Assembly (NCBI GenBank): GCA_017460625.1
Contig: JAFUAT010000007.1
Span: 1-58,628, forward strand
Direction of reading: 5' to 3'
From: Candidatus Saccharimonadota bacterium
GTDB lineage: Bacteria; Patescibacteriota; Saccharimonadia; Saccharimonadales; Saccharimonadaceae
DNA length: 58,628 nucleotides
Shown here: positions 36,883 to 42,165 of the stretch, in pieces
Numbering within the stretch: position 1 is the stretch's first letter
How the letters are laid out: each line of letters opens with the position of its first letter
Made by a program: the position numbers and the translations under genes
The notes under the pieces: generated by a model
What the model was told of the DNA's origin: nothing
Databases searched by the model: none
What the model saw: the letters and a program-made list of their open reading frames with translations, nothing else

Positions 36883-36917
36883 ACATCTATTATATCACGT
36901 AGCAGCCGTTAGGTCGT

Positions 36918-37052
36918 GAATAGGTTCCTTCTGTACTATCTCCCGGCTAAAAACCTGAAAAAATAGTGGTGGAAAGCCGGTACTGAAATACCGGAAGGCT
37001 TCCACCTGATTATTTTTTCTGGTTTTTACCGTAGTACAGAAGGAACCTATTC
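36918..37052. repeat. 135-bp near-perfect palindrome (MITE-like)
   Basis: The outermost 21 bases (36918-36938) are perfectly complementary to 37032-37052. Inside, CGGCTAAAAACCTGAAAAAA pairs with the rest of the right arm, GGTGGAAAGCC with GGCTTCCACC, and CCGGTA with TACCGG at the tip. It fills the spacer between divergent priA and the winged-helix gene. Related fragments occur at 13040-13085 and 40689-40710. No transposase is near. Confidence 0.8.
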
Positions 37053-37119
37053 GCAGCTAAACTCGTTGTAATTTTTACAAATAATGTGCTATAATAGGGA
37101 AAGTAAAAGGAGGTAGAGA

Positions 37120-40688: not shown

Positions 40689-40806
40689 GCTAAAAACTAA
40701 AAAAGTGATGGGGTAGGAATTTCTAAACGTGTTTTCGGAACATAAAGACTTGGCCAGAGCGGCCCGGAGCGTGTCCGAAGGACACGCTTTAGAAATTCCT
40801 ACCCCA
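40689..40806. repeat. Second palindromic intergenic repeat
   Basis: GGGGTAGGAATTTCTAAA (40710-40727) is perfectly complementary to 40788-40805, extended by CGTGT/ACACG; a nested GCGTGTCC/GGACACGC hairpin lies at 40769-40787. The left flank GGCTAAAAACTAAAAAAG (from 40689) is like the arm of the palindrome at 36918, suggesting one family. Confidence 0.65.
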
Positions 40807-40882
40807 ACTAGTATTGTTCGGTAATTAAAAAATAAAGGGGAGAAAAGTCAACCCCACTTTGTTCGGTAAATTAACAGAGAAC

Positions 40883-40944: not shown

Positions 40945-40973
40945 TTGCATTTTCCTGAAAAACATACTATACT
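40945..40973 (+). promoter_or_regulatory. Sigma-70-type promoter ahead of the division cluster
   Basis: TTGCAT (40945-40950) and TATACT (40968-40973) with a 17-base spacer. The start would be about 300 bases before rsmH, producing the structured region below. Confidence 0.7.
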
Positions 40974-40979
40974 GAAGTT

Positions 40980-41267
40980 AGTGGAAACAATTACAAAAAC
41001 CACGAAACAAAAAAGCACATTAAAAAGGTTTGAGAACGATCAACTAGGAGCTCTGGCGCGCATTAAAATTTAGCGAGATGCGAAAAAACAATCGTGCGCA
41101 CTTTTCTCTAACACACCTCCCAATAAAACTCTATAGATCGTGTATGATCAACACAATAAGTCTCTCAACGGCTACAATTTTTATAATTGTGGTGGATAAA
41201 TTGTGTATTAAAACAAAAAACAAACAGAAACAAAACCGCTGAAGTTTCTAGTTGAGCGTTCTCAAAC
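40980..41267 (+). ncRNA. Candidate structured RNA or long leader before rsmH
   Basis: GTTTGAGAACGATCAACTAG (41028-41047) and 41248-41267 are complementary at 19 of 20 positions and enclose 200 bases without a supported ORF. Inner dyads include GCGCGCA/TGCGCAC-type pairing near 41056-41100 and an ACACAATTT-like dyad near 41175-41205. A separate leaderless promoter for rsmH follows at 41275, so the upstream transcript may be an RNA in its own right. I see no RNase P, tmRNA or SRP signature. Confidence 0.4.
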
Positions 41268-41286
41268 AATAGAATATAATATATAC

Positions 41287-42165
41287 ATGGAGAAATTACA
41301 TAATCCAGTATTATTATCTGAAGTTTTGGCAAGTCTTCGTCCTAAGCTTGGTGAGTCATATTTAGATCTCACGGCTGGTTACGGTGGACACGCCGAGAAA
41401 ATTTTGGATGTAACACAGAATTATAAGGATTCCGTGCTGGTAGATCGCGATAGCTATGCCATAGAATATCTAAAAAAGAAATTCGAAGGCAGAGATATTA
41501 CGTTTTATCATAGCGATTTTTACGATTCAGTGCTACAGCTTTTGCAGTGTGGAAAAACTTTTGATATAATACTAGCCGATTTTGGAGTTTCTTCACCGCA
41601 GCTAGATATAAAGGAACGCGGTTTTAGTTTCCGTGAGGAAGCTAATCTGGATATGCGGATGGACCAGAGGCAAAAGCTTACAGCGGATTATATAGTTAAT
41701 CACTGGAGCGAACGAGATCTCGGCGATATTTTCATTAAATACGGCGAAATCCCATCGGGTAGCGCTCGGATGTATGCTCGAGTAATCGTACATCATCGTC
41801 CTATTCATACCACCACGGGTCTAGCCGATCTCATTAAAACGAGAATCCATGGCTATTCCAAGACTCATCCAGCTACTCGCGTCTTCCAAGCTATCCGTAT
41901 TGCCGTTAATGACGAACTCGGACTTATAGAAAAGTCCCTCCCGCTTCTTCCGCAACTTTTAAACCCAAACGGACGCCTTGGAATCATCACCTTTCATAGT
42001 CTAGAAGATCGATTGGTCAAGGAGTTCCTAAGAGAAGAGATAGAACATGGCGAGGAATCAAGACTAAAAGTAGAAGTCAAAAAACCAATCACTGCGGAGC
42101 AAATGGAGTTGTTTATCAACCCGCGTGCTAGAAGTGCAAAGCTCAGAGTAGCTAAGCGAGTATAG
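41287..42165 (+). CDS. rsmH: 16S rRNA (cytosine-1402-N4)-methyltransferase
   Basis: A 292-aa AdoMet-dependent enzyme that modifies C1402 in the decoding centre of 16S rRNA; by tradition the first gene of division clusters (mraW). Motifs: YLDLTAGYGGHAEKIL (about 27-42), the cofactor loop, ADFGVSSPQLD (about 97-107), GFSFREE and LDMRMDQ (about 111-127), ATRVFQAIRIAVNDEL (about 197-212) and FHSLEDRLVK (about 236-245). TATAAT stands six bases before the ATG. No mraZ precedes it. Confidence 0.95.
   Translation: MEKLHNPVLLSEVLASLRPKLGESYLDLTAGYGGHAEKILDVTQNYKDSVLVDRDSYAIEYLKKKFEGRDITFYHSDFYDSVLQLLQCGKTFDIILADFGVSSPQLDIKERGFSFREEANLDMRMDQRQKLTADYIVNHWSERDLGDIFIKYGEIPSGSARMYARVIVHHRPIHTTTGLADLIKTRIHGYSKTHPATRVFQAIRIAVNDELGLIEKSLPLLPQLLNPNGRLGIITFHSLEDRLVKEFLREEIEHGEESRLKVEVKKPITAEQMELFINPRARSAKLRVAKRV

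Follow-up and report, generated by a model that had tools for sequence, protein, structure and literature searches.

The mraW RNA motif of Rfam is an actinobacterial element upstream of mraW, the gene otherwise called rsmH, and 6S RNA is a long RNA closed by pairing of its ends and folded as one interrupted hairpin. PMC10250234 describes Escherichia coli pre-16S RNA as organised by a boxA element together with a leader-trailer helix of more than 17 bp. In PMC5725501, boxA has the consensus GYTCTTTAANA, and roughly one in four of the gene functions linked to it outside rRNA relates to translation. Here we describe a structured RNA at positions 40980-41267 of the window, a 58,628-nucleotide stretch of a Candidatus Saccharimonadota bacterium (contig JAFUAT010000007.1). 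It stands directly before the division cluster, whose gene at 41287..42165 we take, following the initial annotation, to be rsmH, encoding a 16S rRNA methyltransferase. It shares its place upstream of this gene with the mraW RNA motif, and the closure of a long RNA by pairing of its ends with 6S RNA, but it differs from the latter in being multi-armed with a pseudoknot. A comparison with 6S and other families, which had been suggested as a check, gave no match, as neither the window element nor its homologues were recognised by Rfam 15 (6S and mraW included) in gathering-score or E-value mode.

The 20-bp closing stem that the initial annotation had reported is real, as 41028-41047 pairs with 41248-41267 at 19 of 20 positions, and it continues over 25 nt with 88% of the bases complementary; the comparative model gives this helix, here named P1, 28 pairs. 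In a scan requiring a 10-base seed, inverted 20-mers matching at 19 or more positions within 260 nt occurred at three places only in the 58.6-kb window and at none in 20 mononucleotide shuffles. The interval folds on the + strand with an energy of -70.3 kcal/mol (z -6.7; 0 of 200 shuffles equally low) and more weakly on the - strand (z -3.8). Two G-U pairs of P1, at alignment columns 25 and 27, are invariant in 22 sequences of the window's genus, and because both would become C-A mismatches on the opposite strand we assign the RNA to the + strand.

Covariance modelling from related genomes, also proposed at the outset, showed the pairing of P1, of a hairpin P2 and of a pseudoknot to be conserved. 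The genus alignment comprises 22 copies, each directly upstream of rsmH (G026 was excluded, as was G015, in which a contig break divides the copy), and holds 50 pairs in six helices with 97.1% of cells paired and two-sided changes in 17 pairs. Shuffles never attained the observed pairing percentage, covariation score or counts of two-sided changes, whereas 15 of 500 equalled the count of further pair types. In 47 diverse homologues the P1/P2 cells are 96% paired, two-sided changes affect 25 of 28 pairs, and the 183 two-sided cells compare with 41.6 in shuffles (0 of 500 as high), while all slid registers collapse. P1 itself comprises 23-28 covarying pairs, a long helix closing over the RNA after boxA, as a pre-rRNA-like leader requires. 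The pseudoknot, between the loop of P2 and a downstream strand, was assessed by dealing the downstream strands among the sequences, after seven rows with no usable P2 had been dropped. An initial, unrestricted test gave a weak signal (mean 6.37, against 6.10 and at most 6.33 after permutation). The decisive one, restricted to a geometry chosen after looking at the data, found a 4-bp Watson-Crick match in 67 of 102 distinct rows, where 2000 permutations averaged 17.6 and never exceeded 30, and in 31 of 58 rows versus a permuted maximum of 17 once rows of the common CCU/CCC type were removed.

The element is a single-copy structured RNA family of Saccharibacteria, the window's class, located directly upstream of rsmH. 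A blastn search of 40 genomes, in which 39 relatives were added to that of the window, recovered the interval from the window's genome and 22 of 23 others of its genus, the miss (G008) being an assembly 59% complete, and from the order-level relative G026 as a 32-base match only. A covariance model, R1, scored in 190 of 246 genomes of the order and 189 of 244 of the class; R2, built from 47 diverse sequences, scored in 285 of 294 class genomes and 125 of 128 genera. Four of the nine genomes missed by R2 contain rsmH, and an unfiltered search places the RNA ahead of that gene in all four, with E 1.5e-10 and 2.1e-9 and, for two copies at contig edges, 1.4e-8 and 0.0022; the other five have no rsmH match in the assembly. 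One R2 match is doubtful, that in G268 (E 2.4e-4), a genome that yielded no rsmH. In a phylum sample, 36 of 37 in-class genomes score, as counted from the listing, versus 15 of 342 others, mostly near threshold. Eleven of these 15 were followed up, of which G542 (E 1.4e-9) carries a shortened version exactly between mraZ and rsmH and is the sole clear out-of-class relative seen, G525 is taken up below, and the other nine have neither mraZ nor rsmH nearby (tblastn, E 1e-3). Second matches per genome were considered as paralogues and rejected, being the antisense strand of the same locus in five of six genus genomes inspected. G335 has two real places, C7:3694-3961 and C12:6450-6684, each beside an rsmH, and is probably a mixed assembly and not a case of paralogues. 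Covariation and near-universal conservation in the class strongly support the earlier proposal of a structured RNA of about 290 nt upstream of the division cluster, and that the family exists is near certain.

Linkage to rsmH was also seen by scanning a two-part pattern of the unpaired core through a genome contig collection. Of at least 118 stretches found, 109 contain rsmH, always in the orientation of the RNA and at a distance of 159-427 nt downstream from where the core starts. Of the nine remaining stretches, eight end within 256 nt and the ninth, L230, is unrelated DNA, which fits the roughly one chance match expected for the pattern by a hand estimate. Among the matches listed, 80 titles name Saccharibacteria, Saccharimonadia, Patescibacteria or Chaera renei or say no more than 'bacterium', and mraZ precedes the RNA in 57 of the 103 loci with enough sequence. 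MraZ was found in 10 of 12 order-level relatives and in none of 18 same-genus genomes, the window's included; because this genus still carries the RNA beside rsmH, the RNA stayed with rsmH after mraZ was lost. Conserved pairing and a constant place upstream of one gene are thus both present, as expected of a cis-regulatory RNA. By eye, several members that have no mraZ (L018, L049, L051, L052, L053 and L055) show short frames of about 19-25 codons just upstream of P1 that end in a similar peptide (...YEVIRLSK, then stop); the frames are possibly leader peptides or MraZ remnants.

The family order, 5' to 3', is a boxA-like site, P1, P2, a pseudoknot strand, the core without pairing, the P3/P4 arm, a linker rich in A and C and, last, the 3' arm of P1, and the window's genus alone adds a promoter-like site and a small hairpin 5' of boxA. 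In the window these parts lie as follows.

40945..40973, + strand: promoter-like TTGCAT-17-TATACT, from the sequence; the transcript would be expected to start near 40980
40981..41003, + strand: small 5' hairpin GUGG...CCAC, genus only, by eye
41015..41026, + strand: boxA-like GCACATTAAAAA, directly before P1, by a matrix from eight 16S leaders
41028..41058, + strand: 5' arm of the closing helix P1, by fold, complementarity and covariation
41059..41082, + strand: P2 hairpin CGCAU...AUGCG, its loop bases GCGA (41073-41076) pairing with UCGU (41092-41095), by covariation; the pairing in the window itself by eye
41092..41095, + strand: 3' strand (UCGU) of the pseudoknot with the P2 loop GCGA at 41073-41076, by permutation test
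41098..41112, + strand: second, partial and weak boxA-like stretch GCACUUUUCUCUAAC, by eye
41113..41134, + strand: unpaired core ACACCUCCCAAUAAAACUCUAU, nearly invariant in the class, by alignments
41136..41149, + strand: variable hairpin GAUC...GAUC, an insert of this genus, by eye
41151..41206, + strand: P3/P4 arm, by fold and comparative model; ACACAAU/AUUGUGU pairs 41151-41157 with 41200-41206 and GUCU/GGAU pairs 41160-41163 with 41194-41197, with a conserved CUCAACG bulge and an apical hairpin starting at 41171
41207..41236, + strand: A/C-rich unpaired linker, by alignments
41237..41267, + strand: 3' arm of P1, by fold, complementarity and covariation
41275..41280, + strand: TATAAT, -10 element of a probable second, leaderless rsmH promoter, in 21 of 22 genus rows
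41287..42165, + strand: rsmH, the constant downstream neighbour, homologues traced by tblastn

The arms of the 5' hairpin co-vary by eye (GUGG/CCAC, AGCG/CGCU), and across the family the P3/P4 arm holds a conserved CUCUCAA. In L085 an extra hairpin between the 3' end of the RNA and rsmH, noted by eye, repeats P1 helix sequence (...TTAGCTATATTGG...CCAATATAGGTGACCTT) and looks like a partial duplication of P1.

A promoter-like sequence does lie where the sigma-70-like promoter was claimed, in front of the interval, but a generic promoter scan did not report it; a loose version of the TTGCAT/TATACT pattern occurs in 18 of 22 relatives, a count that carries no shuffle control. As to the claimed leaderless promoter belonging to rsmH, TATAAT stands within 28 nt of the rsmH ATG in 21 of 22 rows and, by eye, shortly before rsmH in other genera of the family. 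It is plausible that the RNA has its own promoter within the genus, but elsewhere in the class the RNA mostly lies behind mraZ and so need not be an independent unit. We also considered sequestration of the rsmH ribosome-binding site by P1, as many distant members have AGGUG in the 3' arm of P1; this was set aside because, by eye, the genus has no AGGUG there and its rsmH looks leaderless.

Several features elsewhere in the window may be recorded here. At 40707-40808, between the upstream gene and the promoter-like site of the RNA, lies a hairpin whose 20-nt arms (GGGGTAGGAATTTCTAA and the reverse complement of it) match almost perfectly; one of its 17-mers recurs in the same-genus locus L040, and it is perhaps a small mobile palindrome. 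A further inverted repeat of about 139 nt, with GGTTCCTTCTGTACTAT arms and an inner hairpin, occupies 36916-37054. The contig begins within the 3' end of a 16S rRNA gene (1-129), and because the Rfam scan reported no 23S match in the window, the 16S and 23S genes do not look directly linked here.

The boxA-like site was evaluated with a matrix built solely from the 16S leaders of eight relatives, all of which hold a boxA-like sequence. A boxA 5' of P1 that no more than 1 in 100 shuffles equalled was found at 69 of 90 loci outside the genus and at 34 of 82 genus-like loci, so that its presence in the leader is strong outside the genus and moderate within it. The window copy GCACATTAAAAA passes (0 of 100 shuffles as high in row L001), although it deviates from the E. 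coli consensus. The gap between boxA and P1 is 0-3 nt in the window's genus, boxA nearly abutting P1 in the window, and the spacing to the helix is fixed at 18-19 nt in Enterobacteriaceae according to PMC10250234. Genes for NusB and RNase III were found in 20 of 20 genomes; these are the proteins expected to act on an RNA combining boxA with a long helix, and in G000 they lie about 0.7 kb apart (C8:3295-3678 and C8:4372-5025), as they lie close in other relatives. No Rho above the family cut-off was found in these 20 genomes, whereas 8 of 14 control genomes exceeded it; the weaker Rho matches look, from their length, like ATP synthase subunits.

By this layout the RNA resembles the pre-16S leader as described in PMC10250234, in which boxA is likewise followed by the 5' strand of a long closing helix with a possible RNase III site, but the helix here encloses about 200 nt and not 16S rRNA, mRNA follows it, and the core has no significant sequence match to 16S. 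Like the leaders of suhB and other Nus-factor targets covered in PMC5725501, it carries boxA ahead of a protein gene, and translation-linked genes are numerous among those targets. In those leaders boxA acts by repressing translation, which results in termination by Rho; in the Saccharibacteria genomes searched Rho was not found, and their boxA is followed by the long helix P1, the pseudoknot and the invariant core. By its parts the RNA may be regarded as a boxA leader, as a candidate and not as a proven member. Among titles and abstract openings we found no published description of it, although supplements of RNA surveys such as PMC8040213, which reports thousands of candidate RNAs from human microbiomes, could contain one. 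It is apparently an uncatalogued RNA family and a new variant of leader RNA, of which an earlier unnamed listing in such supplements is possible.

We propose a model, tentative and somewhat short of probable, in which the RNA is a cis-linked, boxA-bearing and pre-rRNA-like leader that ties ribosome-assembly factors to expression of rsmH and the division genes. The constant linkage across the class points to an effect in cis on rsmH and on the genes that follow, and reading by the rRNA assembly machinery is suggested because boxA plus a long helix is the layout of a pre-rRNA leader. Once transcribed as the leader of the rsmH/division operon, the nascent RNA would be bound at boxA by NusB-S10 as on rRNA, P1 would then close like the leader-trailer helix of rRNA, and RNase III could cut it. 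The folded core would be recognised by some RNA-binding factor, perhaps one of ribosome assembly, and would set how much rsmH mRNA is made or survives, and that of ftsL/ftsI too where no internal promoter intervenes, so that ribosome maturation would be tied to the division cluster. Several observations weigh against this model. The strongest is the TATAAT before rsmH, which would permit transcription of rsmH without the leader. Moreover, boxA gives a weaker signal within the genus, the site lies at a variable distance from P1 (median 22 nt to the model hit, widely scattered, among the 69 of 91 rows that passed the score limit), the core has no known ligand or protein, and antitermination by boxA lacks its usual purpose where there is no Rho. 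In G525, a weak out-of-class match (E 3.2e-5), a P1-like stem and A-rich linker lie between mraZ and the next cluster gene, with rsmH elsewhere and the C-rich core missing.

By letting rsmH bypass the leader, the TATAAT favours a trans-acting product, namely a stable RNA that RNase III would cut out at P1 and that would bind a protein or a second RNA through its unpaired core, with the rsmH side being promoter context only. A core kept almost letter by letter across the class, the promoter-like site in front with a separate TATAAT behind, and the ubiquity of RNase III in the genomes searched all suit this possibility. Trans-acting RNAs such as RNase P RNA, tmRNA and 6S, however, generally switch neighbours between orders, unlike this RNA, whose place is constant over 125 genera and survives the loss of mraZ, and we consider the trans reading rather unlikely. 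A metabolite riboswitch would use P2, the pseudoknot and the A-rich joining strand as its pocket, for instance for S-adenosylmethionine, the cofactor of RsmH. An H-type pseudoknot with covarying strands beside an A-rich strand and the constant linkage to one enzyme gene are as it would predict, but the pseudoknot letters vary freely while the invariant letters sit in the unpaired core, no Rfam riboswitch matched, and no terminator or ribosome-site switch was recognised, leaving this reading improbable.

The linkage to rsmH would equally suit autoregulation, with the core imitating the 16S target around C1402 and RsmH binding its own leader. The mimicry of the 16S decoding site is attractive by eye, since ACACCUCCC resembles 16S ACACCGCCC and ACACACCGCCC could be located in L240, but it failed against shuffles (100 of 100 as good for the family core, 21 of 100 for the genus core). 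The best core matches fall elsewhere in 16S and some members have an altered core, so that autoregulation seems quite improbable. The initial annotation had pointed to ACCTCCC (41115-41121, within ACACCTCCCAAT, which is invariant in the 22-genome alignment) as a possible mimic of an anti-Shine-Dalgarno sequence. ACCUCC does occur in 35 of 38 model-found rows and ends the window's own 16S, but the conserved block is much longer than a hexamer and 3 of the 38 rows keep the RNA without it; the claim is unsupported as stated, and a CACCUCC decoy pairing with the ribosome-binding sites of mRNAs appears very improbable. The G-poor family core (52 nt, with 21 C and one G) could finally be taken for a rut site of a Rho-dependent attenuator counteracted by boxA. 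Rut sites are not known to be conserved letter by letter, as this core nearly is, and attenuation by Rho, to which we give hardly any credence, was dropped because no Rho was found in genomes searched alongside positive controls.

A more specific form of the leader model, on balance unlikely, would make the RNA a miniature pre-rRNA, in which boxA and the leader-trailer-like helix let assembly factors sense or process a class-wide RNA and so couple ribosome maturation to the rsmH/division operon in Rho-less symbionts. If this is true, it would be placed where other bacteria have mraZ, and the invariant core would be a docking site for a factor. An RNA kept in nearly all Saccharibacteria genomes, its core almost unchanged over 125 genera, is likely important in organisms whose genomes measure about 0.5-1.7 Mb and of whose regulation little is known, and it offers a lineage-specific marker. 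The coordination of ribosome maturation with division in an episymbiont, apparently in the absence of Rho, thereby becomes directly testable.
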